64,000 bases of DNA from Nitrospirales bacterium LBB_01. Lineage in GTDB: Bacteria > Nitrospirota > Thermodesulfovibrionia > Thermodesulfovibrionales > Magnetobacteriaceae. This document shows positions 4,154 to 49,221 of this stretch, one piece after another. A program made the translations under genes and the position numbers. The notes below the pieces were generated by a model. That model saw only the letters and a program-made list of their open reading frames with translations, searched no databases and had not been told where the DNA came from. Location of the stretch: positions 1,302,001-1,366,000 of the forward strand of contig CP049016.1 of the NCBI GenBank assembly GCA_004376055.2, read 5' to 3'. Positions within the stretch are counted from its first letter, which is position 1. Every line of letters begins with the position of its first letter.

Positions 4154-5455
4154 TCAAGTTGACGAATTGTCCTCTTTCGGCGTCATATAGAAATCCTCTA
4201 TGTAGTCTCTGAGACATATGTTCATTGGGGAGTCTTGCATTTTTTTAATGGTCATGCCTGGTTCATAGAAAGTTGTATATAAATACATTGCGTTTTCTTG
4301 CAGGTATGGCAAAAACCCTGCAATCACTTTGTCCTCAGGCAGAGTGCTCATAAGCTTATCTATCCGGCTGAACCGCTCCAAACGCTCTTCAATTTCTTTT
4401 TCATCCTTAAGCCGTTTCTCTCTTACATCTATCTGTTGCTGCTCTGTTTTGAGCTTTTTTTCCTTCTCAAACAACGACGGCTGCGTGTGCCAACCCTCTT
4501 TGAATGCGCTTATTGTCACTGCCCCAAGCTGACACTCCACTCCCGTATTTCTCTTCCTTTCATGGTACTTACGACAGTATGAGAGCACCGATATTACGTA
4601 CTCCCGCCCCCTTTCAGGCAGCACCTCTGTCATTATATCATACGCTTGCTCACGCGACAATTGATAATGACTCTGCATTTTTTCAAACATCTTTTTGTCG
4701 TCATCACCCATTGACGCTATTACGCTGTCCATCACAGTCATCTTTACAACGTTCATGTCCAGCTGCTGAGCTTCTTTGCCCTTGTTGGCTACTATTATAA
4801 ACTCTATTGCGGTCACCTTACGGCCTGTCTTTATCTCTTTGATTTCAAAGGATATATCCGTAATGTACTCCAACTCCCTTTTAGCAGCCGACAAAACCCT
4901 GCTCTTAAAATGATTATAGACATCGTACTCATCCGGCTTAATTCCTAAAATCTGCTTTAACTCTTCTACTTCAAAAGTTCTCCGCCCTATTCTTTCATAC
5001 TGTTTCAACAGTTCATAAATTCTGATAGCATAGGAGCTTTTTAACTTAATTACATTTCTGAGGTTATACCTTACAAAACACTCCTTTAGCCCAAGCAGGT
5101 ATGGTTTAAGCTTTGGATCAAAACAGAGCTCCACATAACCCTCGCCGTCAAAATACTCCGCCGAGGAAAACCACGACAGTTGAAGCTCCGACTTCGGCTT
5201 TTTAATTATCAGCACTTTTTCAATCAGCCCTTTGGTCAGCTTTTTTATCTCAGAGTACATTTGTTGGTTTTTAATTCCAAGAAGTTCCAGAAAATCTGAG
5301 ACTTTGATTCTGTAAATATGGAAATCATCATCGCCGGGCTGAATCATGGAAACCATCATAAGTATTATCCTCTGTTCTGAGGTAGTCAGCCTGTAGTGTG
5401 CTTCGTTTAGATCATTTGATTTTACAACTAAGTGATTTGCTTTCTCCAAGCGCAC
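4154..5455 (-). CDS. Rep_3-type plasmid replication initiator
   Basis: The first winged helix of the Rep_3 (PF01051, RepB/RepE/Pi) initiators is clear: NDLNEAHYRLTTSEQRIILM, then LKSSYAIRIYELLKQYE and the second wing helix. This protein binds iterons and opens the origin. The frame extends upstream to an ATG at 5656, but those codons are the iteron DNA itself. A consensus promoter at 5511-5539 would start RNA near 5504, downstream of that ATG. The first canonical start in the transcript is GTG at 5455 (433 aa), although it has no well-spaced ribosome site. The C-terminal 130 residues are charged and helical. A plasmid-type replicon gene, here on a contig with his and glg genes. Confidence 0.85.
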   Translation of the reverse strand: MRLEKANHLVVKSNDLNEAHYRLTTSEQRIILMMVSMIQPGDDDFHIYRIKVSDFLELLGIKNQQMYSEIKKLTKGLIEKVLIIKKPKSELQLSWFSSAEYFDGEGYVELCFDPKLKPYLLGLKECFVRYNLRNVIKLKSSYAIRIYELLKQYERIGRRTFEVEELKQILGIKPDEYDVYNHFKSRVLSAAKRELEYITDISFEIKEIKTGRKVTAIEFIIVANKGKEAQQLDMNVVKMTVMDSVIASMGDDDKKMFEKMQSHYQLSREQAYDIMTEVLPERGREYVISVLSYCRKYHERKRNTGVECQLGAVTISAFKEGWHTQPSLFEKEKKLKTEQQQIDVREKRLKDEKEIEERLERFSRIDKLMSTLPEDKVIAGFLPYLQENAMYLYTTFYEPGMTIKKMQDSPMNICLRDYIEDFYMTPKEDNSST

Positions 5456-5510
5456 CTCTTTATAGATTTTTTTAGAGTTAATTTCCTCATTCTCGTTATC
5501 CTCGTTTTTA

Positions 5511-5539
5511 ATTGTATCATAATGCCACAGAAATTTCAA
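5511..5539 (-). promoter_or_regulatory. Promoter of the replication initiator gene
   Basis: On the minus strand, TTGAAA (5539-5534) is followed by a 17-nt spacer and TACAAT (5516-5511). The -35 box lies in a degenerate iteron copy, so initiator bound to the iterons would cover its own promoter. This is inferred from the sequence. Confidence 0.7.
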
Positions 5540-5658
5540 CACGTGGCATTTCACTATGAAAGTGTGGCATTTAGCTATGAAAGTGTGGCATTTAGCTATG
5601 AATTTGTGGTATTTCACTATGAAAGTGTGGCTGTTCACTATGAAACTGTGGCACATAC
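5533..5658. repeat. Iteron array, 21-bp direct repeats (putative origin)
   Basis: Five head-to-tail copies start at CTATG positions 5554, 5575, 5596, 5617 and 5638, exactly 21 bp apart. The consensus is CTATGAAAGTGTGGCATTT plus two bases. A sixth degenerate copy (CACGTGGCATTT) lies at 5533-5553. A 21-bp period is about two helical turns, as in iteron-regulated plasmids. The adjoining 5660-5740 stretch is AT-rich and could be the unwinding element. No DnaA box of the TTATCCACA type was seen nearby. Confidence 0.85.
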
Positions 5659-5750
5659 AGTACCTAATACGTTGTAAAATATGAGTAATTTGACGCCGAA
5701 AAGCTTTAAAGTATTTAAATCAGTAAAAATAATAACAACCGGTGTTTTCA

Positions 5751-5769
5751 CTATGAAACTGTGGCATTT
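5751..5769. repeat. Isolated iteron copy
   Basis: CTATGAAACTGTGGCATTT matches the array consensus, is out of 21-bp phase with it, and lies across the AT-rich segment. Confidence 0.75.
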
Positions 5770-5823
5770 GTAATTTTTGGGATTCGTTGTTGTTTTTTTT
5801 AAGAGTATGACACGGTGTAACTC

Positions 5824-5852
5824 TTGACTAAATGACAAATTATTGCTATCAT
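5824..5852 (+). promoter_or_regulatory. Promoter of the coiled-coil gene
   Basis: TTGACT (5824-5829), a 17-nt spacer and TATCAT (5847-5852). RNA would begin at about 5859, which coincides with an in-frame ATG, so the message is probably leaderless. It also excludes the upstream in-frame ATG at 5832. Confidence 0.7.
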
Positions 5853-5858
5853 ATGTCT

Positions 5859-6371
5859 ATGATGACACAGAAAAACGACATGATCATCCCAGAAGAGCCG
5901 ATTACCAAAAAAGACGTAATTGAGGCAATGAGAGAAGTTATTACACCTTTGGTCAGAGATGTTGAAGCTATAAAAAAAGATTTAAACGAAGTAAAAACCG
6001 ATGTAGCAATACTAAAAACTGATGTAGCAGTGTTAAAAACTGATGTAGCAGTGTTAAAAACTGATGTAGCAGTGTTAAAAACTGATGTAGAGTCGATAAA
6101 AGTTGAGCAAAAGAGTATGCGCGAAGAACAAAGGAGCATTCGTGAAGAGCAAAAGCGAATGTCTGAAGAGCTTAAAGAGGTTAAACACGAGTTAGCAAAG
6201 AAACCAGACAGAGACGAGGTGCGTCTTATTGTACGAGATGAGATCAAAAGCAATACAGCTCTTTATATTTTTGACAGAGGCAGCCTTGAAGGACTAATTA
6301 TCGATTGGCTTGAAAAAAACCTTGAAGTTAAAATAAATGAAGTTTTAAAGAAAAAGAAGCTTATTAAATAA
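5859..6371 (+). CDS. Coiled-coil protein with heptapeptide tandem repeats
   Basis: About 170 residues. Residues 30-100 are an uninterrupted coiled coil built on LKTDVAV heptads, with four nearly identical DNA copies of 21 bp between 5991 and 6090. A charged KxEQ/REEQ coil follows, then a C-terminal domain around LIVRDEIKSNTALYIFDRG. I do not recognise a catalytic motif. The start is set by the promoter at 5824-5852. The gene lies between the iteron array and an isolated iteron at 6436, so it may serve replication or partition, but that is only positional inference. Confidence 0.6.
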   Translation: MMTQKNDMIIPEEPITKKDVIEAMREVITPLVRDVEAIKKDLNEVKTDVAILKTDVAVLKTDVAVLKTDVAVLKTDVESIKVEQKSMREEQRSIREEQKRMSEELKEVKHELAKKPDRDEVRLIVRDEIKSNTALYIFDRGSLEGLIIDWLEKNLEVKINEVLKKKKLIK

Positions 6372-6435
6372 TATATAGTGCAATTCTTTTCAGTAACACT
6401 TCTGTAGGTAGGTTCTAAAACAAAGTCATTTTTCA

Positions 6436-6450
6436 CTATGAAAGTGTGGG
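6436..6450. repeat. Isolated iteron-like copy
   Basis: CTATGAAAGTGTGGG is identical to the first 14 bases of the array unit. It lies 60 bp upstream of the peroxiredoxin gene. Confidence 0.6.
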
Positions 6451-6508
6451 TTTTCATATGTTTTCTGGTAATATAAGCAATTAATATTAATAACTCAGGG
6501 GGATGGTT

Positions 6509-6979
6509 ATGACAATAAATTCCGAAGATAAAGCGCCTGATTTCTGTCTTTTTGGGATAGATGAGAGTGAAGTGGAAAAGGAATTCTGTCTGTCAGAGCT
6601 TTTAAAGCAGGAAAAGCAGCTAATCTTGTACTTTTATCCTAAAGACAACACACCGGGATGCACTCAGGAGTCTTGTGACTTTAGAGATAATTACGCAAGG
6701 TTAACATTGAAAGCTTTGGTTTTTGGGATAAGCCGCGACAGCATAGCAAGTCACATTAAGTTTAAGGAAAAACATGGACTGAACTTTCCTTTGCTTTCTG
6801 ACCCAGACCATAAGGTTTTAGAACTCTACGGGGCATGGGGTGAAAAGAAGATGTACGGAAAGTCTATTATAAGCACTATCAGGACTACTGTGTTAATCAA
6901 TAAAGACGGTAAAATCAAGAAAATTTGGAACAATGTCAAAGTAAAAGGACATGTTGATGAGGTTTTATCGGAACTGTGA
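6509..6979 (+). CDS. bcp: Peroxiredoxin, Bcp/PrxQ type
   Basis: A 156-residue thiol peroxidase of standard length. It reduces hydrogen peroxide and organic hydroperoxides using thioredoxin. The motif TPGCTQESCDF holds the peroxidatic Cys51 and the resolving Cys56 five residues later, as in the atypical two-cysteine PrxQ group. The sequence AGGGGG directly abuts an ATG at 6503, which is too close, and is 6-7 nt before the ATG at 6509, so 6509 is chosen. It is a single-gene unit just beyond the origin region. Confidence 0.93.
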   Translation: MTINSEDKAPDFCLFGIDESEVEKEFCLSELLKQEKQLILYFYPKDNTPGCTQESCDFRDNYARLTLKALVFGISRDSIASHIKFKEKHGLNFPLLSDPDHKVLELYGAWGEKKMYGKSIISTIRTTVLINKDGKIKKIWNNVKVKGHVDEVLSEL

Positions 6980-7008: not shown

Positions 7009-7422
7009 TTATCTCTTAAAGGCCGGCAGACGCCGCTCATTTAGTTCATACGCAATGGTGTCGGAGGAGCTTCTGTAGCCAAAGGTGCCTTGCCTGAACG
7101 GGTGCTTATACTCATAAATCTTAACGTTGAGCGAATTTACGAGCATGTGCAGATTATATGTAAAACGGTTGTGACCAAACGTATTAATCAGCTTATGAAT
7201 ACTCTCAATGTGTTCAAGCAGCTGACGCTTTAAAGGGTTAATGACATTTTCCCTTAAAATGAGATCGGTAACGGTGATGCCGAGGTAGTCGTTTATATAA
7301 TCGATGTCTTTTTTTAACCTGTAAAAAGGGATAAACTTAAAAAATCTTGAATATACAGGCTTTGGCAGTCCTATCTCATCAATATCGTGTTCTATCTTTT
7401 CAATTGCCATCACACAAATCAT
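7009..7422 (-). CDS. Hypothetical protein
   Basis: A 137-residue predicted soluble protein, mostly helical, ending in a basic stretch (ELNERRLPAFKR). No family is recognised. The start is well supported: AAAGGAGGACACACGAT precedes ATG with good spacing. No membrane segment or cysteine motif is visible. It converges on the peroxiredoxin gene with 29 bp between, and its upstream side is the repeat-filled gap before parA. Confidence 0.6.
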   Translation of the reverse strand: MICVMAIEKIEHDIDEIGLPKPVYSRFFKFIPFYRLKKDIDYINDYLGITVTDLILRENVINPLKRQLLEHIESIHKLINTFGHNRFTYNLHMLVNSLNVKIYEYKHPFRQGTFGYRSSSDTIAYELNERRLPAFKR

Positions 7423-7519
7423 ATCGTGTGTCCTCCTTTGAGCTGCTTAAATATATTATAACATATAATTACAATTATTACAAATATAATTATTGTAATT
7501 ATAAGATAAATGTTTATTG

Positions 7520-7530
7520 AGTTAACTCCG
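7520..7530. repeat. Solo terminal inverted repeat of the AGTTAACTCCG element
   Basis: AGTTAACTCCG followed by GCAGA matches the left end of the elements at 22861 and 31074. No right end is seen nearby. A copy of the CGCAGATT-type repeat follows at 7540-7575. Confidence 0.55.
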
Positions 7531-7602
7531 GCAGAAGGATACAGAGAAAAGATTTATCCGCAGATTGCGCAGATTTTTTCAATAGAATAGATATTTTAAG
7601 AC

Positions 7603-7817
7603 AGGGGAAACGCATTAGAGAAAAAAGCAGCAAAAGACTTCTCTGTTGCAAGGCAGAATTTTTAGAGAAAAGGACTGGATTCCCGCTCGGAGGCGGGAAT
7701 GACAAGGAAGGATATGTCTTTTTTTTGTCATTCCTGCGCAGGCAGGAATCCAGTTTTTTACCGAAGCTACACTGCATTGGCAATATATTATTATTTCCTG
7801 TGAAATGCGTTTGCCCT
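7603..7817. repeat. MITE-like element (AGGGCAAACGCATT ends) with a nested repeat
   Basis: The left end is AGGGGAAACGCATT and the right end AATGCGTTTGCCCT, an inverted pair. Its interior is nearly identical to the copy at 25388-25515 (CAGCAAAAGACTTCTCTGTT on one side, GAAGCTACACTGCATTGG on the other). A palindromic GGATTCC...GGAATCC repeat is inserted at about 7666-7760. This fills most of the gap before parA. Confidence 0.8.
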
Positions 7818-7889
7818 GTATTTTAAGATAAGTTTATCGTTAATCACTGTGGTTTTATGTTATCATAGTGAGGATGCGTCTTATATAAA

Positions 7890-8732
7890 ATGGCAATGAT
7901 ACTAACGGTAATCAATCAAAAGGGCGGAGTGGGGAAGACCACGGTAGCGGTAAATCTCTCCAGTTTCATGTCGGAGTATTTTCAAAAAATTCTGCTTTTG
8001 GACTTTGATCCGCAATCGGACGCCTCCGTGTGGCTGTGTAAAGACTATGGGGATTCGGTGGGTCAGCTTAACGCTCAACATCAGAGGCCAAAAATAGAGG
8101 ATATTTTACAGTTTGGCTTAAAAAACGATCTTGACGACAGTGCCGTAAAACAAGAGCTTAAAGCGCTCTCTCTTGCCGCTGTGTCAGGGATTACTCCGGC
8201 TGTCATAACCACATCCCTAAACCTTGACCGCATTGACAGGGAGATGACTGGAATTGGGGAGCGTAAGGCAGCCGCAAAGCTGATTGAAACCATTAAAATC
8301 ATATCCGAGGACTATGACCTTGTGTTAATTGATACGGCGCCCTATATATCAAATCTTCACTATATAGTTGTCAGCGCCTCAGACTACATCTTAATTCCTA
8401 TAACGCTTGACGCAACGGCAATTGGCGGCGGCGGTAACGTGATAAATCTGATACTCTCTGACGTCAGAAAATACTACAATAACCCAGACGTCTCGGTGAT
8501 AGGGGTGCTGATAAATAACTATGAAAAAGTGTCAAACATATCTAAAGCGATGGAGGATATGGCTCTTGAGGTGTTTGGCGATTTGATATTTAAAACTCGC
8601 ATAAAATCGGCAGTAAAGCTCCGTGAGCTGCCCATATTGAATTCCACGCTGGATAAAGTCTATCCGAAACTCCCCCTGTCTCAGGACTTTAAAGACCTTG
8701 CCCTTGAGATATTCAGCCGGATGCAGACTTAA
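7890..8732 (+). CDS. parA: ParA/Soj-type partition ATPase
   Basis: A 280-residue Walker-type ATPase that segregates DNA with a ParB partner. The deviant Walker A motif QKGGVGKTT lies at residues 10-18, the A' motif is LLDFDPQSDAS, and Walker B is LVLIDTAPY. There is no N-terminal helix-turn-helix, so it is of the short ParA (chromosomal or type Ib) size class. ATG at 7890 or 7896 is possible; GAGGA lies about 15 nt upstream, and a TATCAT -10-like box is at 7861. It is not adjacent to parB, which is 6.3 kb away on the other strand. Confidence 0.92.
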   Translation: MAMILTVINQKGGVGKTTVAVNLSSFMSEYFQKILLLDFDPQSDASVWLCKDYGDSVGQLNAQHQRPKIEDILQFGLKNDLDDSAVKQELKALSLAAVSGITPAVITTSLNLDRIDREMTGIGERKAAAKLIETIKIISEDYDLVLIDTAPYISNLHYIVVSASDYILIPITLDATAIGGGGNVINLILSDVRKYYNNPDVSVIGVLINNYEKVSNISKAMEDMALEVFGDLIFKTRIKSAVKLRELPILNSTLDKVYPKLPLSQDFKDLALEIFSRMQT

Positions 8733-8928
8733 GCCTCCCCCTCCGTAGCTCAAACATTGTCTGAACTATCATCTGCGGATAGAATCTTTTCTCTGTTATG
8801 ATTTTTTGATGTTATAGAAAAACTTTTGAAATACTATAAAATTTGAACGCCAATATCAGTATTACTTAAACAGCCCCGTCACTGTCTTTTTTTAGCCAAT
8901 TTAATGATACAATATAGATACTTAGGCT

Positions 8929-15045: not shown

Positions 15046-15944
15046 CATCTATATTCTAACACTTTAAGCACAGTCTTAAGCTCTTTCCGTAAGTCTTTTT
15101 TCTCAGCATCAGACAAGTCGTCAACATTGCTCTCTACGGCTCTTAGCGCCTCTCTTAGTTTAGTGCACAAGCGGTTATGTTCAGGTGTGTGTGGAGTGTC
15201 GCTGAATAGCTCTGCCGCCTCCTGTTTGGTTAGTTTAGAGTGCAGCGCCCTTTCAAACACTGCATCAAATGCCGGATGTTCCACGTTTGAAGCAAGCGCA
15301 TATCCAACAGTAAGACTGATGGTTTTCTCTCTCAGGGCGTCCTTAACCTTTTGCGGAAGCCGCAGAAGTGTCAGAAGTCTTTGCAGGGTTCTGCCGGATT
15401 TTCCCGATATTTTTAAAATTGCGGACACAGTGTCCGCAAGCTCAGGGCTCAGTCGTTCCGGCGCTCTGCCGTACGTTACGAAAGCGTTAATTACATCGTT
15501 TTCGGTAGAGTTACCGGCTTTGCTTGTAAAATAACGAAAATACCCCAGAGCCTCATCCAGAAAGTTTAAATCCTGCCGGATGATGTTTTCAATCAGCTGT
15601 ATTTCAACAATGTCTGACTCTGAAAGATTCCGCAGGATGCGTGCCGGGATTGTATCAAACCCAAGTGTTTTAGCTGCGCGGAGCCGTCTCTCTCCGGCAA
15701 TAAGGACATATTGCCCGTCAAGTTCAGCTAAAAGTATGGGCTGCAAGACTCCCTGTCTGCGGACTGACTCCAGAAGCTGCTGAAAGTGCTTATCCTCACG
15801 GAACTCCTGCCTGACCTGCGGCCTTACAACGATTTCGGACACACGCACTGTCACATCAGAGGCATTTGACATCACAGACATAAACCGCGACGAAATGTAG
15901 CCATCAGCTCCCTTTTTCAGAAGCTCTTTTGTTATCTTAGGCAC
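15045..15944 (-). CDS. parB: ParB/Spo0J-type partition protein
   Basis: A 299-residue protein. The ParB N-terminal CTPase/nuclease-like domain is at residues 30-125 (VRPQVRQEF, QGVLQPILL, and GERRLRAAKTLG with the CTP-binding GERR box). ENIIRQDLNFLDEALGY follows, then a helix-turn-helix region, KISGKSGRTLQRLLTLLRLP. The C-terminal 60 residues are a charged dimerisation tail. The start is GTG at 15944, 9 nt after a TATAAT box with no ribosome site, so probably leaderless. The partner ParA is at 7890. No canonical parS (TGTTTCACGTGAAACA) was seen. Confidence 0.92.
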   Translation of the reverse strand: MPKITKELLKKGADGYISSRFMSVMSNASDVTVRVSEIVVRPQVRQEFREDKHFQQLLESVRRQGVLQPILLAELDGQYVLIAGERRLRAAKTLGFDTIPARILRNLSESDIVEIQLIENIIRQDLNFLDEALGYFRYFTSKAGNSTENDVINAFVTYGRAPERLSPELADTVSAILKISGKSGRTLQRLLTLLRLPQKVKDALREKTISLTVGYALASNVEHPAFDAVFERALHSKLTKQEAAELFSDTPHTPEHNRLCTKLREALRAVESNVDDLSDAEKKDLRKELKTVLKVLEYR

Positions 15945-27254: not shown

Positions 27255-27578
27255 CTATACAAACCCAAGCCAGACAGCGAGAGCTTTGTTAATTGCCAAC
27301 ATCGTTGAATCGTCCAGATGTCCAAAAACAGGGCCGAGTTTATCACAAGGGACGGTCACAGCTTTATCTATCATTACCTGAGATATTTTTCTAAGTCCAT
27401 TTTCTGTAGTTGGTTTGACTTCTATCCGAAATAACGGGGCATCTCTCAATTCACTCGTTATGAGAAGGATGGTCATGGAGGTGTGTTTCATAAAAAGGTC
27501 TGATTGAATAACGAGTGCTGGACGAGGCTTGCCGTAATCGCCAAGCCCAATGGTTGTAACTATATCACCGCGTCTCAT
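27255..27578 (-). CDS. mazF: MazF/PemK-type endoribonuclease toxin
   Basis: A 107-residue MazF fold: MRRGDIVTTIGLGDYGKPRPALVIQSD, given here as RGDIV and GKPRPALVI, is the N-terminal barrel, then RKISQVMIDKAVTVP. It cleaves mRNA at short sites. It starts in the stop codon of the antitoxin (ATGA). It appears complete. Confidence 0.92.
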   Translation of the reverse strand: MRRGDIVTTIGLGDYGKPRPALVIQSDLFMKHTSMTILLITSELRDAPLFRIEVKPTTENGLRKISQVMIDKAVTVPCDKLGPVFGHLDDSTMLAINKALAVWLGFV

Positions 27579-27790
27579 GGCTGCCAGCCGCTAAAATCCG
27601 CTACCTCCCCTATAAACTGTAAGACTTCTTTTTCCTGTGGGTCGTTTCTAAGCTGCGCCAATTGACGCTCAGCCTCCTTTACAAACTTACGGCTGTGGGT
27701 GTCAGGTACCCACATCTGCAAGAGCTTCATCCCCCTGTGGGCATTGTCCCGTCTCCGTTCGTCAAGGGCTCCGAGGTGATTATTGGCCAT
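27575..27790 (-). CDS. MazE-like antitoxin, DUF3018
   Basis: A 71-residue DUF3018 (PF11455) antitoxin: RGMKLLQMWVPDTHSRKFVKEA, split as KLLQMWVPDT and KFVKEAERQ, a ribbon-helix-helix fold. The AGGAGG site 8 nt upstream supports ATG 27790 rather than the earlier ATG in the same frame. The cognate toxin MazF follows. Confidence 0.88.
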   Translation of the reverse strand: MANNHLGALDERRRDNAHRGMKLLQMWVPDTHSRKFVKEAERQLAQLRNDPQEKEVLQFIGEVADFSGWQP

Positions 27791-27910
27791 AAGCTGTCCT
27801 CCTGTGCTATTGATATTCTGTATGCTACCATAATCCAATCGATTTTTCAAATACTCTGCGTGGGTGTCGTTGAGCCCTGTCTGCCGACCGATGAGACTGC
27901 AAATTGGCGG

Positions 27911-28507
27911 CTAACTCTGTACGTCACAGGCACCGCCGTCCATTATCGTATCCAGAATCAGATGACAGATATACTGATGAACGACCTCCACGACTCCATA
28001 GATGTTTGACGGCACATAGAAATTTATAACGCCTTTTTTTCGCAGCGGATTATCCGGTTTAAACCCTGAAAGTGTAATCACATCACAGGTCTTTTTTACC
28101 GCCATATCTGCCCCGTTTAGGATGTTTTTAGAGCTGCCGGAGCTGCTGATAGCTATCAGGACGTCTCCATTATCTGCAAACATCTCGATTGGCTTTTCAA
28201 ACACGTACTCATAACCGTAGTCGTTAGCGATACAGGTAAGCAGGGAGGAATCGTTAAATGCGGTAGCCTTGATGCGGCCGTTTTTCCAGAAATCTATCGC
28301 CATGTGGCTGGCTATTGCAGCCGAGCCGCCATTGCCAATAAACATTACCTTGTTGTTAGCTTTATGATGAGAGGCAATCACTTTACACGCATCTGCGACA
28401 GCTGCAATGAAATCTAACGGCACACCATCGGCATCCGTCACTATAACGGCGTCAAGCGCTGCCTTAAAATCGGCGAGGCATTTTTGAGCAGTTTGAGCGT
28501 ACGTCAT
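27911..28507 (-). CDS. SIS-domain phosphosugar isomerase, GmhA-like
   Basis: A 198-residue protein of the phosphoheptose isomerase (GmhA) type: MFIGNGGSAAIASHMAIDF is the phosphate-binding loop, ISSSGSSKNIL the second, and HQYICHLILD the C-terminal helix. GmhA converts sedoheptulose-7-phosphate to D-glycero-D-manno-heptose-7-phosphate, the entry to LPS heptose. The start 28507 has a TACAAT box 7 nt upstream and no ribosome site. The HldE-like fusion at 31295 supplies plausible next steps, so a heptose or heptose-like nucleotide sugar is inferred. Confidence 0.87.
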   Translation of the reverse strand: MTYAQTAQKCLADFKAALDAVIVTDADGVPLDFIAAVADACKVIASHHKANNKVMFIGNGGSAAIASHMAIDFWKNGRIKATAFNDSSLLTCIANDYGYEYVFEKPIEMFADNGDVLIAISSSGSSKNILNGADMAVKKTCDVITLSGFKPDNPLRKKGVINFYVPSNIYGVVEVVHQYICHLILDTIMDGGACDVQS

Positions 28508-28556
28508 TAGGAGTATTGTAACACGTGTTGAGAGAATTTTTCCGCAGATTGCTATT

Positions 28557-29378
28557 CTAATTGGTATTTCCGAAAGATGAGCTGCCGCTGTTTGATTCAT
28601 TTGAAGGAATTTTTCTATAGATCTTTCTCGATAAATCATCAAAGGCATCTAGTGAGACCATTTCACCCCCGACATTTGATAATCTGGCGAGAGCATTGCG
28701 TGGGATTAAAGTTTGATCGGCAAAAATCAGCAAGCTGTCAAAGTTTACTTTTCCACGTAATAATCGTTCAATAACTATAGTGGTTAACTGAGCCTTATCT
28801 TTGCCGGGAATTCCAAACAGGAACAAAGGAGCATCTTTCCCATCTATCTTGTAATCAATGGGATAATCTTTTGCTTGTTCAATCTCTGTGCAAAAATACT
28901 CTTCAGTGATTTTATCCTCAGGAACTATTTTCAACAATTGTTCCCGTAAATCCTCATAAAAAGTAGATTCTGCTCTTGCACGATTCAAAAATGTAACATC
29001 AACGATTTTAGTTAATGCCTGCCCTAATCTGAAGATATTAAAAGCAATATGTTCTAACGGAGTGTCAATAAAGAACTCTCCATTATCTTCTTCAACAGAA
29101 GTCTCAGCTTTTATCTGGTTAAGAATATTTCCACGTGTTCCTTTTTTAAATTTATCTATGTCATTTTCATAACTTAAGTGAATCATTGTGTGTCCCATAT
29201 CCGTCAACCGTAGGATTCCTCCAGACATTTCTCTGATATAAATCTGATATATATCACCGTCGGCAAAGTAAAACGGCGTTTCTACAACCAGTAATTTTTC
29301 ATTCCTGGGTTTAATGGTTACCTCAGCGCACATCAGCTCACACAGTTTTTTTTGTAATTTATCAATGTCAAAATTCAT
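28557..29378 (-). CDS. DUF1828/DUF1829 protein
   Basis: A 273-residue protein. The N-terminal 95 residues match DUF1828 (LRLTDMGHTM is the conserved core); the C-terminal half fits DUF1829 (ERLLRGKVNFDSLLIF). Family biology is unknown; it is often seen in accessory regions. It follows the DUF6978-like gene by 2 bp, so the two form a module. A shared palindrome precedes the pair. It interrupts the sugar genes on both sides. Confidence 0.75.
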   Translation of the reverse strand: MNFDIDKLQKKLCELMCAEVTIKPRNEKLLVVETPFYFADGDIYQIYIREMSGGILRLTDMGHTMIHLSYENDIDKFKKGTRGNILNQIKAETSVEEDNGEFFIDTPLEHIAFNIFRLGQALTKIVDVTFLNRARAESTFYEDLREQLLKIVPEDKITEEYFCTEIEQAKDYPIDYKIDGKDAPLFLFGIPGKDKAQLTTIVIERLLRGKVNFDSLLIFADQTLIPRNALARLSNVGGEMVSLDAFDDLSRKIYRKIPSNESNSGSSSFGNTN

Positions 29379-29380
29379 TC

Positions 29381-29866
29381 TTAAAATAACCTGCTTTCAT
29401 CTGGAGTTGTTTGTATGTTTTTGACATTACACGCTTTAACAAGGCAGTGTAATGCGCCTTCTACGGTTATGTAGCAGGATGTTTTTTCTGCAAATCCTTC
29501 TGCTTTTTTGTTAGCCCTGATATACCTTTCAGTAGCAATATGCACATGGGCTCCATCTGTTAGAGAGTCGTTTTCAAGGTGATTTTTGTGTTTATGATTG
29601 GGGCCGTTATATCTTTTCAATGTTAACATCTCACCGCTTGGTGCAATCCAAATGATGCCGCATGAAAAATCATCCTCCATTCCCTCTCTCTTGTTCTGTC
29701 GTTTGTAAATCATAAATTTATATTTATTTGTATCCAAAGATATTGCGTCATAATTGTATTGTTCGTGTTCTGCCTTTATTTTACTTTTTATACCAGGGTT
29801 AATAACTCTTTTTTCGCAAAGAATCAACTCCTCTATTTTGCTGTCTGTAATGCTTTCAAATGCCAT
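29381..29866 (-). CDS. DUF6978-like protein
   Basis: A 161-residue predicted soluble protein, with KYKFMIYKRQNKREGMEDDF, split as KYKFMIYKRQ, and HKHKNHLENDSLTDGAHVHI, rich in histidine. It pairs with the DUF1828 gene (2-bp spacing), a two-gene arrangement recurring in accessory DNA. The function is unknown; a toxin-antitoxin or defence role is only inferred. Confidence 0.6.
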   Translation of the reverse strand: MAFESITDSKIEELILCEKRVINPGIKSKIKAEHEQYNYDAISLDTNKYKFMIYKRQNKREGMEDDFSCGIIWIAPSGEMLTLKRYNGPNHKHKNHLENDSLTDGAHVHIATERYIRANKKAEGFAEKTSCYITVEGALHCLVKACNVKNIQTTPDESRLF

Positions 29867-29997
29867 AACAGATTATACCCGGCTTATATCAAATGATTCA
29901 ATACCCAGCGTCAGCTCTTGCAATCACAGAAACACTCGGAGTTACAATCTGGACACAATATTTTCATGTTACATCAGAGTCATTTTAAGATATTTTT

Positions 29998-30020
29998 CAT
30001 TGACAATGCTATTGTCAATG
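29998..30020. promoter_or_regulatory. Perfect palindrome between divergent genes
   Basis: CATTGACAAT, GCT, ATTGTCAATG: 10-bp arms with a 3-bp centre, each arm including TTGACA in its own direction. It lies between the DUF6978-like gene and the transketolase gene and could be an operator for either. Confidence 0.55.
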
Positions 30021-30087
30021 AGTTAGCCTATTAGTGGATTTAAAGAAACCCTTAGACGCAAATTAGTCTTAATAGAAACACCACCCT

Positions 30088-31017
30088 ATGAGAAACGCAT
30101 ACATTAAAGCGCTCTATGAGCTTTCAGAAATTGACAGCCGCATAGTCTCTCTGATTGCCGATAACGGGGCTATCGTGTTTGACAAGTACCGGGAGGCGTT
30201 CCCAGAGCGCCTCATTAACGCAGGAATTGCCGAAGCTAATATGATTGGTATGGCTGCCGGAATGGCTTCCACGGGGCTTATTCCGTTTGCTTACACAATC
30301 TCAAATTTTATAACGTTTCGCGCTTATGAACAGGTGCGAAACGACGTCTGTCTGCAAAATATGAACGTCAAACTTGTCGGTATCGGAGTTGGATTTGCTT
30401 ACAGTAACCTTGGGCCCACCCACCACAACACAGAGGACATCACCGTGATGCGGGTGCTGCCCGGGCTCACCATTTTCTCCCCCTCTGACCCCCTTGAGAC
30501 GTATAATGCAACCGTTGCAGCAGCTAAAATAGAGGGCCCCGTATATCTTAGAATCACAACGGGAGGCACCCCTAAAATTTACGACGCCCCGTACGAATTT
30601 AAACTGGGATACGGCGTCACATTAACCGAGGGCAGCGATATTACCATAATTGCCACAGGCTCCATTGTTTACGAAACTCTGCAAGCTGTGGACATACTTA
30701 AAAAGTGCGGCATAAACGCAAGACTAATCAATATCCACACGATAAAACCATTTGATACGGAAATTATTCTGAAAGCGATAAACGAGACCGGAGCACTGCT
30801 TTCTGTTGAGGAACACTCAGTAATCGGCGGTCTTGGCAGCTGCATTTCTGAAATAATCGCAGAATCTGGACACAGCGTTAAATTCAAACGCATGGGCTTA
30901 AACGACACTTTCCCAGTGGGTTACGGCACGTACGATGAGATGAGAAAAATCAACGGCCTTGATAAAGACAGTATCGTCAATGAGGCTAAAACGCTGATAC
31001 ATAGAGGGAAATATTAA
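30088..31017 (+). CDS. Transketolase C-terminal half
   Basis: A 309-residue protein containing only the pyrimidine-binding and C-terminal domains of transketolase (NAGIAEANMIGMAAGMA, GPTHHNTEDI, GPVYLRITTGG). The thiamine-pyrophosphate-binding N-terminal half is not in this window, so a separate partner must be encoded elsewhere or the enzyme is incomplete. Split transketolases occur in archaea and in sugar clusters. It lies between the GmhA-like gene and the HldE-like gene, consistent with making a sedoheptulose or other aldose precursor. Confidence 0.88.
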   Translation: MRNAYIKALYELSEIDSRIVSLIADNGAIVFDKYREAFPERLINAGIAEANMIGMAAGMASTGLIPFAYTISNFITFRAYEQVRNDVCLQNMNVKLVGIGVGFAYSNLGPTHHNTEDITVMRVLPGLTIFSPSDPLETYNATVAAAKIEGPVYLRITTGGTPKIYDAPYEFKLGYGVTLTEGSDITIIATGSIVYETLQAVDILKKCGINARLINIHTIKPFDTEIILKAINETGALLSVEEHSVIGGLGSCISEIIAESGHSVKFKRMGLNDTFPVGYGTYDEMRKINGLDKDSIVNEAKTLIHRGKY

Positions 31018-32848: not shown

Positions 32849-33457
32849 TTAAGTTGATTTAATTCTGTTAGCCAAAGATAATGGTTTTGACTTACGGATT
32901 ACTCCTTTGTCATCGTCAAGAAATGTTATGCTTTCGTAATAATCCTCAAGACGAATAAAAGTACCAAACTCTTGAGCCCATTTTTTCAACCTCGAATTGC
33001 AAGTTTTCTCCCATGCGATGATTTCAATCCCCCAGCCTTTATTGTGCATTCTTTCTAAATCGGCATGAAAATCTACTCCATCATGAAAACCATGGCCATC
33101 TCCTGTTAACATTATAACTATTCCGGGGGTTCCATTATAGTCAATAGTCTTCCTGAGCATATGCACTTGGAGGGCTTGATCCACAGCTTGCTCTTTATTT
33201 GAATCTGAACCTCTTTCAAGTAATTCAATCTTTATTCCGCATTGTTCCATTTTGTTCCAAACGTGACGCAATTCGGGAGGAACGGAGCCGACCGCTATTG
33301 CATATTCTATCTCACGGCCGGCGCTTGCAAGGTCCAAAATTCTATTAAATTGGAGCCTTAATTGATAACGCGCATCTTGCCCTTCATTCTCAGAAGCTAC
33401 CGTTTTTCCGCTTATAAAAATGTTTGAGTTATCCCAAAAAATAAAAACTTTTTTCAT
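32849..33457 (-). CDS. NYN domain (LabA/DUF88-like) putative nuclease
   Basis: A 202-residue PIN-like NYN protein: MKKVFIFWDNSNIFI holds the first Asp and Asn, KEQAVDQALQVHML the central acidic site, and MLTGDGHGFHDG the last acidic motif. These are RNA-processing nucleases; the biological role here is unknown. The ribosome site and start are tandemly duplicated (ATG at 33475 and 33457), the first opening a two-codon frame, ATG GAA TGA, before the main start. Confidence 0.8.
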   Translation of the reverse strand: MKKVFIFWDNSNIFISGKTVASENEGQDARYQLRLQFNRILDLASAGREIEYAIAVGSVPPELRHVWNKMEQCGIKIELLERGSDSNKEQAVDQALQVHMLRKTIDYNGTPGIVIMLTGDGHGFHDGVDFHADLERMHNKGWGIEIIAWEKTCNSRLKKWAQEFGTFIRLEDYYESITFLDDDKGVIRKSKPLSLANRIKST

Positions 33458-33540
33458 ATGTTCTCCTCATTCCATATGTTCTCCTAAAAAAAAGCATTTC
33501 TTAGTGTAACTCAAGTGAGATATGTATTTCAACTTCTTTT

Positions 33541-33580
33541 TCTTATCTGCGTTCATCTGCGTCATCTGCGGATAAAGTTC
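33541..33580. repeat. CTGCGTTCATCTGCGTCAT repeat copy
   Basis: One copy of the CGCAGAT family, CTGCGTTCATCTGCG followed by GATAAAGTT. Confidence 0.65.
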
Positions 33581-33648
33581 TCAAAATCACAACAAAAACG
33601 TTCCTTTTCACTTTGAATTAATCGCAATGAAAACAACATTTTAATTTT

Positions 33649-33680
33649 GATATAATCTATAATATAATAGATATTATATC
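33649..33680. promoter_or_regulatory. Near-palindromic operator/promoter before the recombinase gene
   Basis: GATATAAT ... ATTATATC arms with an inner CTAT...ATAG pair and two TATAAT boxes (33651, 33662). Transcription control of the recombinase is inferred. Confidence 0.5.
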
Positions 33681-33703
33681 TTTTTACTGAGAGGAGCGGT
33701 TAA

Positions 33704-34315
33704 ATGGCAAAAACCATCGGATATATCAGAGTGTCCACGGATGAGCAGGACTATAGAAACCAAAAGTTTGAGATTTTAAATTATTGCGATAAAGAGCACA
33801 TCAAAGTGGATACGTGGATAGAGCTTGAGGTATCAACCCGTAAGTCTTTAAAGGAGCGCTCAATAGACAAGCTGATGTCTTCTTTAGAGTCCGGCGACAG
33901 GTTGATAGTGACAGAGCTTTCACGATTAGGGCGGAGCACCGGCGAGGTTATTCAACTGATAAAGAAACTGGCGGCACTTAAGGTAGAGTTCATCTCGGTC
34001 AAACAGGGGCTTAAAATCAACGCATCAAACGATAACGATATGACCTCTAAGATAATGGTCACGATTTTCTCGCTGCTTGCCGAACTTGAACGGGATTTAC
34101 TCTCTCACCGCACCAAAACGGCGCTGCAACGGGCAAGGGCAGACGGTAGAACGCTTGGCCGCCCTAAGGGCCCCGGCAAATCAAAATTAGACGGCAAAGA
34201 GGGAGAGATTAGGGGGCTTTTGAATAAACGGGTTACAAAGGCGAATATTGCTAAGATTTTGGATGTATCATGGGGCACTGTTGATAATTTCATAAAGCGT
34301 AAGATGTCATTTTGA
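33704..34315 (+). CDS. Serine recombinase (resolvase/invertase)
   Basis: A 203-residue small serine recombinase. The catalytic serine is in YIRVSTDEQDY (Ser12 region), and other active-site residues are in LIVTELSRLGRS. The E-helix reaches LERDLLSHRTKTAL, and a C-terminal helix-turn-helix follows (VTKANIAKILDVSWGTVDNF). The ribosome site GAGAGGAG is 8 nt before the ATG. No target crossover sites were identified nearby. It may belong to the plasmid-like or mobile content of the region. Confidence 0.92.
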   Translation: MAKTIGYIRVSTDEQDYRNQKFEILNYCDKEHIKVDTWIELEVSTRKSLKERSIDKLMSSLESGDRLIVTELSRLGRSTGEVIQLIKKLAALKVEFISVKQGLKINASNDNDMTSKIMVTIFSLLAELERDLLSHRTKTALQRARADGRTLGRPKGPGKSKLDGKEGEIRGLLNKRVTKANIAKILDVSWGTVDNFIKRKMSF

Positions 34316-34370
34316 GATGGTTTTGTGTTATGATATAACATCGATAACGGGGGAGGAGTGTATAGGAATT

Positions 34371-34640
34371 ATGGTGACAATAGTTTTAGAACATATAAAA
34401 GGAACTGATTTGCCTGCGGAGTGGATAGAGAAATATAGGCTGCCGACAGAACGGAGTTTTACGGTTAAAATAGAGCCTGATACTTTGGATGGCTTACCGC
34501 CAGCGCCGGTTGGAGACGAAAGAATGAGAATTCTGGAGTCAATCAGAGCTTTAGGCGGCGGCAATGAGGACTCCGAGGAGTGGATACGAATAATTAAGAC
34601 TGCCAGGACAATCTCTAAACGAAGGGTTGATATTATTTAA
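34371..34640 (+). CDS. Putative antitoxin of the VapC pair
   Basis: An 89-residue protein with an N-terminal beta-hairpin-like part and an acidic helix (ERMRILESIRALGG). GGAGGAG, 12-14 nt upstream, supports the ATG at 34371. It overlaps the next gene (TAATG). No known family; its role is inferred from the neighbour. Confidence 0.65.
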   Translation: MVTIVLEHIKGTDLPAEWIEKYRLPTERSFTVKIEPDTLDGLPPAPVGDERMRILESIRALGGGNEDSEEWIRIIKTARTISKRRVDII

Positions 34641-35080
34641 TGCCTTACCTGTTGGATACCAACCACTGTATTTACCTGATGAATGGCTCAGAGAAAACAG
34701 AAAACGACCTTTCAACCTTTGAACATAATACGATAGAAATGGTGCATATTTTTAGAAACGAGCCTTGCTATATGTCAGAAGTCAGTTTAGGAGAGCTATA
34801 TTACGGAGTGGCTTTTTCTAACATGAAAGAACATAATTTTAACAAGATAGCACTTTTTAGGGAGTCTGTTTTAACACTGTCATTAGATACAAATATTTGG
34901 ATGTTATTTGGTGAAACAAAAGCTTATTTACGAAAGCAAGGTAAAACTATAACTGATTTTGATTTACTAATCGCTTGCACTGCAAAGACGTATAATTTAA
35001 TTCTTGTGACAAATGATTCAGATTTTGAGGTTTTACCGGAATCTTTTGAACGAGTGAATTGGGCCGGAAAGGAGAGATAA
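34640..35080 (+). CDS. vapC: VapC-type PIN ribonuclease toxin
   Basis: A 146-residue PIN protein: YLLDTNHCIYLM (first Asp), MSEVSLGELYYG (Glu), TITDFDLLIACTAKTYNLILVTND, split as DFDLLIACTA and LVTNDSDF, holding the last acids. All four acidic positions are present. It starts at the antitoxin stop (TAATG) and is followed by cysC after 4 bp. Confidence 0.92.
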   Translation: MPYLLDTNHCIYLMNGSEKTENDLSTFEHNTIEMVHIFRNEPCYMSEVSLGELYYGVAFSNMKEHNFNKIALFRESVLTLSLDTNIWMLFGETKAYLRKQGKTITDFDLLIACTAKTYNLILVTNDSDFEVLPESFERVNWAGKER

Positions 35081-49180: not shown

Positions 49181-49221
49181 ATTTTTGTAAGGGCGAATAA
49201 TTATTCGCCCTTACTTTCTAT

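Follow-up and report, generated by a model that had tools for sequence, protein, structure and literature searches.

The DNA analysed here, referred to below as the window, is a stretch of 64,000 nt from Nitrospirales bacterium LBB_01 (CP049016.1, assembly GCA_004376055.2, positions 1,302,001-1,366,000 of the forward strand). Within a group of sugar genes it carries a module of two adjacent genes on the minus strand, the first encoding a DUF6978-like protein and the second a DUF1828 protein. The module and the features around it are arranged as follows.

27255-27850, minus strand: MazE-like/PemK toxin-antitoxin pair, between the SIS and radical-SAM genes (Pfam)
27911-28508, minus strand: SIS-domain sugar isomerase-type gene, the downstream flank (Pfam)
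28557-29378, minus strand: DUF1828 protein of 273 aa, second gene of the module, proposed sensor or holder (PF08861, PDC-M24B, predicted model)
29381-29866, minus strand: DUF6978-like protein of 161 aa, first gene of the module, proposed effector (profile comparison, phrog_27326 match, model with pLDDT 90)
29997-30021, no strand: perfect palindrome with 11-bp arms and a 3-bp centre in the divergent intergenic region, which may be linked to the module (pattern search)
30088-31017, plus strand: transketolase gene (pyrimidine-binding and C-terminal domains), the divergent upstream flank (Pfam)

The gap between the two genes is 2 bp, and the compact pair described in the first-pass annotation was thus borne out by the gene coordinates (29866-29381 and 29378-28557). 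The sugar-gene setting proposed there was also correct: the SIS, transketolase and radical-SAM domains were recognised by Pfam and the other sugar genes by eye. The module together with the transketolase gene separates a kinase gene from the SIS gene, and MazEF separates the SIS gene from the radical-SAM gene. The sister genome G096 has its kinase, SIS and radical-SAM genes in one uninterrupted row, and in G132 the halves of the transketolase adjoin each other, the other half lying upstream of the transketolase orthologue (by eye); in these two genomes the SIS gene and one transketolase half were matched by search and the remaining genes by eye. Other genes were seen near the transketolase gene, namely one for an AAA_15 ATPase upstream in G062 and one for an AbiEii protein downstream in G096. 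The G062 ATPase gene is accompanied by a gene of 157 codons (L153, 6667-8446, minus strand), and the two are possibly a further defence pair. The sugar region of the window also contains, at 32849-35080, genes for an NYN-domain protein, a serine resolvase and a PIN-domain protein, the last preceded by a small gene.

The GC content of the module is 36%, that of the flanking genes 46-47% and the window mean 42%. In G235, a genome of the same family, the pair (L066) again lies between a transketolase gene and a SIS gene (35% and 33% identity to those of the window, respectively) in another arrangement, and the window pair may therefore be an old resident rather than a recent arrival. Either the sugar cluster attracts mobile cargo or it has long carried the pair; the low GC content favours the first option and the gene order in G235 the second.

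The second protein is a member of DUF1828 (PF08861; E 2e-22, 79.5 bits against a Pfam cut-off of 22). The first protein matched zero Pfam families even at E 10, so the cut-off of DUF6978 (PF22398) was not reached, and it matched phrog_27326 at 8e-42. Its profile aligned with that of DUF6978-type partners over 142 columns (hhalign 95%, E 2e-8), which makes the label DUF6978-like the right one. In addition, a phmmer search with this protein found the upstream partners of other DUF1828 genes with E from 1e-6 down, and in a scan of 25 partner proteins, including that of the window, 20 matched PF22398 at E 0.1. The DUF1828 proteins themselves form two branches; their N-terminal 143 columns could be aligned by profile comparison (99%, E 3e-19), and for the C-terminal part no alignment was obtained. 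A reading of DUF6978 as a toxin of the TumE type found no support, with zero such Pfam matches among the 25 partners at E 0.1.

To describe how often the two families occur together we used 295 genomes of the phylum, where DUF1828 matches were found in 38 genomes at 44 places. Ten of these places, all from a single genus and with E of 4e-9 to 8e-7, were left out of the counts of pairing and restriction neighbours. Seven of the ten were fetched (L078-L084) and contain genes of 220-245 residues with no DUF6978 gene directly upstream; several of these weak chromosomal matches have common housekeeping-type neighbours and look like a distant user of the domain. At 30 of the 34 clear places a DUF6978-like frame lies upstream on the same strand, the partner being broken or split at L052, L059, L065, L072 and L077 and a weak match at L074, L075 and L076. 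No DUF6978 was found within 3 kb upstream at L046, L054 and L063, and at L056 we saw just a remnant, a tail fused to a GmrSD gene. At this last locus (7185-8735, minus strand) the DUF6978 tail replaces the end of the GmrSD gene and precedes DUF1828, perhaps as a deletion scar between defence genes. The first protein had matches in 10 genomes, and in all 10 the matching gene adjoins a DUF1828 place.

Similarly, both families were found in 35 of 43 viral loci, the partner lying upstream in 32 and on the opposite strand, convergent, in three (L111, L114 and L124, with a repressor-type gene nearby), although these counts are not independent because L087-L092 are nearly identical. The retention of the pair despite an altered orientation argues for a joint function. 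For 32 intact pairs chosen by hand, the tree of one family agrees with that of the other (Mantel r 0.874, reached in 0 of 2000 permutations). It is clear that the DUF6978-like and DUF1828 genes form a conserved, co-inherited pair. Searches of other records gave five phage records for DUF1828 and four for the partner, and no match to either in plasmid records; a single-protein scan found one locus in genome contigs and no match in viral contigs.

In the intergenic region shared with the divergent transketolase gene, the perfect palindrome reported at first pass was recovered as a single copy in the genome. It reads CATTGACAAT-GCT-ATTGTCAATG at 29998-30020, and extending it to 29997-30021 gives the arms of 11 bp. 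With 3 mismatches allowed it remained the one site in the 3.27-Mb genome (the same site reads on both strands), and 0.01 occurrences of the exact pattern are expected by chance per 64 kb. As a class, perfect palindromes with arms of at least 10 bp and a centre of at most 8 bp are less special than this exact pattern: the window has three, and 10 windows simulated with a Markov model had 0 to 2 each. The two others lie at 49187-49214 (14-bp arms) and 15419-15439 (10-bp arms).

The palindrome is upstream of both neighbouring genes, at 130 bp from the DUF6978-like start codon and 66 bp from the transketolase gene, and could act for either of them. A promoter scan of 29600-30300 gave 2 promoter-like sites, about as many as the 2.1 expected. 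The palindrome may be an operator of the module, but hardly one of conserved sequence: a search of 31 other modules, covering 250 bp upstream of each (31 bp for L069), found no match at up to 5 mismatches with similar spacing, except for one poor 4-mismatch match at L051. Different perfect palindromes with arms of at least 11 bp were found upstream of two of the 31 modules (L085 and L057), compared with a mean of 0.017 in 60 simulations that ignore the terminators and operators of ordinary intergenic DNA. The L085 palindrome (about 6308-6334) has 12-bp arms and a 3-bp centre, a geometry like that in the window, at an almost equal distance; that of L057 has 11-bp arms, lies about 100 bp upstream of the pair and recurs in L062 with one mismatch. 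The palindromes upstream of related modules may be operators or terminators.

The place of the palindrome so close to the transketolase start, and the other perfect palindromes of L085 and L057, could also be taken to mean that the palindrome and the two genes are a regulatory unit, operator and regulator, for the sugar cluster. We consider this extremely improbable, because neither window protein has a Pfam match to a DNA-binding domain and in front of the G062 and G132 transketolase genes the palindrome had no match at up to 4 mismatches; for the G096 gene, just a one-armed match was found far away.

We then looked at the genes next to the pair in other genomes. Type I restriction genes (HSDR_N or Methylase_S) lie within 5 kb of 8 of the 34 DUF1828 places, where 0.33 were expected (P about 5e-10); within 10 kb the number was still 8 of 34, with 0.57 expected. 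This test worked with start positions, rounded genome sizes and draft contigs, and most two-domain genes were entered once. Other restriction types were covered by a Pfam scan of selected neighbours only, in which four more places (L065, L069, L073 and L085) and L005 were found to adjoin type III-like nucleases or other DNA methylases. The neighbouring systems are varied and comprise type I, type III-like and N6_Mtase/Eco57I-type systems. L005 comes from the closest relative, a named member of the Nitrospirae, and its DUF1828 protein is 74% identical to that of the window. The gene order there is methylase, DUF6978, DUF1828 and restriction nuclease, the two junctions measuring 10 and 4 bp, and the DUF6978 frame of this draft contig has an in-frame stop. 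Twelve chromosomal members were aligned with the protein of the window, and six of them have restriction or methylase neighbours; no restriction neighbour was present in the DNA examined for L066, L067, L070 and L071, the last being a contig of 3.2 kb. No type I restriction genes were found near the window copy, the nearest HSDR_N match lying more than 500 kb away. The pair is mobile and linked to restriction loci.

These observations bear on the proposal of the first-pass annotation that the module resembles a toxin-antitoxin or phage-defence unit. Linkage to defence genes in other genomes, the check that this annotation itself had set as a possible refutation, speaks for the proposal, through the type I genes near 8 of 34 places, the further methylase and nuclease neighbours, a match to the PADLOC candidate PDC-M24B and the CI-type neighbours of the phage copies (see below). 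On the operator-like palindrome the observations point both ways, its sequence not being kept in the 31 other modules and two of them having other perfect palindromes upstream.

Linkage of this kind could also be expected of a restriction accessory, a pair that tunes or assists restriction-modification enzymes, for example by restraining the nuclease until the host is methylated. Stand-alone copies would then work on more distant restriction systems of the cell, or serve phages as anti-restriction. The insertion of the L005 pair between methylase and nuclease genes and the type I genes near 8 of 34 places fit such a role, but more than one type of system adjoins the pair, and for many copies, including that of the window, no such gene was found nearby. 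The position of phage copies next to CI would, moreover, suit a function expressed in the lysogen rather than anti-restriction on entry, and on balance we regard an accessory role as unlikely.

In many of the phage loci the pair lies downstream of a repressor gene on the same strand. Sixteen phage regulators, chosen by eye among the neighbouring genes of the 43 viral loci and including three from convergent loci, were scanned; HTH_3 was present in 14 and Peptidase_S24 in 12, as in regulators of the CI type. The phage copies adjoin repressor and integrase genes, and the named phages include those of Pseudomonas and Latilactobacillus. In Pseudomonas phage PACT201 (L003, about 5400-6600) the pair consists of split frames, which may reflect decay or errors in the record. 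In phage lambda, RexAB is a two-gene exclusion system encoded just downstream of cI on the same strand. Several phage pairs sit where rexAB does in lambda, a likeness of position only, for which no sequence relation is claimed.

From the company of repressor and integrase genes it might be argued that the pair is a prophage function in superinfection or lysogeny that was later captured by chromosomes, the bacterial copies being relics, and five of the 30 paired chromosomal copies are indeed broken or split. Most chromosomal copies, however, are intact or truncated by nothing but the end of a contig, and a fair proportion of them lie at restriction loci. Such an origin and fate seem to us very improbable.

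In 8 of the 43 viral loci the DUF1828 N-terminal domain was found with neither the C-terminal domain nor DUF6978 in the DNA searched, which for L115-L117 extended merely 204-859 bp downstream. Four of these free-standing domains, from L116-L118 and L123, are related genes of 125-144 codons; the others are in L112, L115, L126 and L127.

L116, 4953-5387: free-standing DUF1828 N-terminal domain
L117, 2943-3371: free-standing DUF1828 N-terminal domain
L118, 4992-5387: free-standing DUF1828 N-terminal domain
L123, 4992-5369: free-standing DUF1828 N-terminal domain

The L116 gene directly follows D12 and C5 DNA methylase genes and the L118 gene follows a weak, sub-cut-off match to VRR_NUC. In L112 a serine recombinase gene lies just upstream, and this domain may belong to a host gene split by a prophage.

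Sequence searches at E 1 found no relative of solved structure for the DUF1828 or the DUF6978 family. The folds were compared through predicted models. The model of the DUF6978-like protein (pLDDT 90, pTM 0.85) had no clear match among solved structures (best E 0.15 in the PDB, best Z 5.5), which is not in itself proof of a new fold, and matched weakly an uncharacterised viral protein (E 0.007). Across 32 pairs K19, H107 and H109 are invariant, R85 is present in 31, and H93 and N95 in 29. These conserved residues (K, R, H-x-N and H-x-H) may form an active site or a metal site. As the fold is unmatched, a reading of the protein as an enzyme rests on conservation.

The DUF1828 model was predicted with a pLDDT of 83 and a pTM of 0.50. 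Its N-terminal domain (about residues 1-134) resembles 3cxj (Z 10.4, 3.0 Å over 116 residues) and, at Z 8.1-8.9, STM2138, CesT, ExsC and SycE, and is thus predicted to have the type III secretion chaperone or TY-chaperone fold. The best matches of the C-terminal domain (about 135-259) were the PD-(D/E)XK nucleases Can2 (Z 9.4), VC1899 and Cdn1 (9.3) and PspGI (8.9), and with Foldseek the best for the model was VC1899 (E 3e-4); the C-terminal part also resembles receiver domains, whose Z values of up to 8.4 come close to that of the best nuclease. The (D/E)XK motif in the third core strand was found in none of the 14 members of the window's branch and in none of 18 other members, for which the C-terminal alignment is unsupported by profile comparison. 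A DGK or EGK in the preceding turn occurs in three of the 32 members, the window's included. The C-terminal domain is on this prediction nuclease-like but lacks the catalytic motif in the third core strand, and the DUF1828 protein is therefore probably not an active nuclease.

A chaperone-like domain could serve as an antitoxin, and the pair could then be a plain toxin-antitoxin (addiction) module that stabilises islands or prophages and has no role in phage defence. The compact two-gene operon, the MazEF and PIN toxin genes in the region and the perfect palindromes upstream of the pairs in the window, L085 and L057 would all suit such a module. Neither window protein, however, matched a toxin or antitoxin family in Pfam, PADLOC and PHROG-type searches, nor a DNA-binding domain in Pfam, and the linkage to restriction genes also counts against it. 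We find a purely addictive role distinctly unlikely.

The interpretation that we prefer, and to which we would give an about even chance, is that the module is an anti-phage unit of two genes which was gained by horizontal transfer and is divergently related to PDC-M24, with the DUF6978-like protein as effector and the DUF1828 protein as sensor or holder. In its favour are the pairing, the agreement of the trees, the linkage to restriction genes, the PDC-M24B match, the position in phages, the low GC content, the predicted structures and the DarTG2 precedent given below. Against it count the distance of the window copy from type I restriction genes, the relatives that have no restriction neighbour, the gene order in G235, the interrupted DUF6978 gene of L005, the missed PDC-M24A models, the unmatched DUF6978 fold, the four of 34 DUF1828 places that lack a full partner, and the pTM of 0.50 and receiver-domain matches of the DUF1828 model. 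From its conserved K, R, H-x-N and H-x-H residues, the DUF6978-like protein would be an enzyme that does the harm or gives the protection. The DUF1828 protein would bind it and keep it harmless, sense infection, perhaps via phage DNA or DNA ends, and then release or aim it. Behind restriction, the pair would form a second line that works like abortive infection. The division into effector and holder, the toxicity, the trigger and the abortive infection are in this sense suppositions about how such a unit might work.

A more detailed version, which we think quite improbable as a whole, would have a sensor of phage DNA or of restriction products, composed of a chaperone-like domain and a dead PD-(D/E)XK domain, unleash a His-dependent DUF6978 effector of unmatched fold, as an abort switch that backs up restriction, and phages answer with free-standing DUF1828 N-terminal domains. 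The latter could act as decoys that poison the holder protein.

If the pair does defend, it would be a two-gene system found across a phylum and in temperate phages and barely mentioned in the open-licence literature. The predicted architecture leads to a testable division of labour between a His-dependent effector and a chaperone-like, nuclease-dead partner. If true, the preferred interpretation would also help to explain why pairs occur next to genes for methylases and nucleases. The phage domains that stand alone would then be candidate counter-measures.

As a candidate, the combination of the two families is already known: PADLOC lists it as PDC-M24. What is new here is the divergent branch, the convergent arrangement, the reading as chaperone plus dead nuclease and the free-standing phage domains, part of which may be described in the preprint behind the PADLOC candidates. 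In the open-licence full-text literature, preprints excluded, PDC-M24 is not mentioned, while DUF1828 is named in two papers, one of them PMC7970244, and DUF6978 in one; the mentions of DUF6978 and of DUF1828 in the paper other than PMC7970244 stand in tables and are made in passing.

In the phage-defence candidate PDC-M24 the component M24A is of the DUF6978 type and M24B of the DUF1828 type, that is, the same families in the same order as in the window. The window DUF1828 protein matched PDC-M24B (7e-17 and 3e-16) over its N-terminal half, but the first protein missed the PDC-M24A models, with 0 families at E 1. The partners of L066, L073 and L068 likewise matched no PDC-M24A model at E 1, whereas phage sisters did match (L088 at 1e-8 and L086 at 1e-6), and the models were matched by up to 15 of 25 partner proteins. 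The adjacency of the PDC-M24 genes and their linkage to defence loci were found at the level of the families only, and judged by these matches the window pair is a divergent relative of PDC-M24 and no formal member. PADLOC derives its PDC candidates by 'guilt-by-embedding', and most of the candidates treated in PMC12988326 still await validation (see also PMC10855318).

A validated two-gene defence system, HipAD or DS-6, consists of a HipA-like kinase and a DUF3037-DUF1829 protein, according to a section of PMC13092281. The window pair has no adjoining kinase or DUF3037, and the likeness lies in the two-gene build and in a protein with DUF1829, which may or may not be related to DUF1828. At L063 (3203-5641), one of the places that has no DUF6978, HipA_2 kinase, DUF3037 and DUF1828 genes stand in a row, and this arrangement recalls HipAD as described in that section.

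A precedent for a pair embedded in a restriction locus is the phage-active RRDM island, where two-gene DarTG2 lies between hsdS and hsdR of a type I restriction locus; the proteins differ from DUF6978 and DUF1828, and the part of PMC12255303 that describes the island does not give DarTG2's own share in its activity. Domains of the TY-chaperone type (type III secretion chaperone or YbjN fold) have been proposed to take part in conflict and immune systems in a portion of PMC9503650. Compared with other domains of this type, the predicted one in DUF1828 differs in being joined to a nuclease-like domain.
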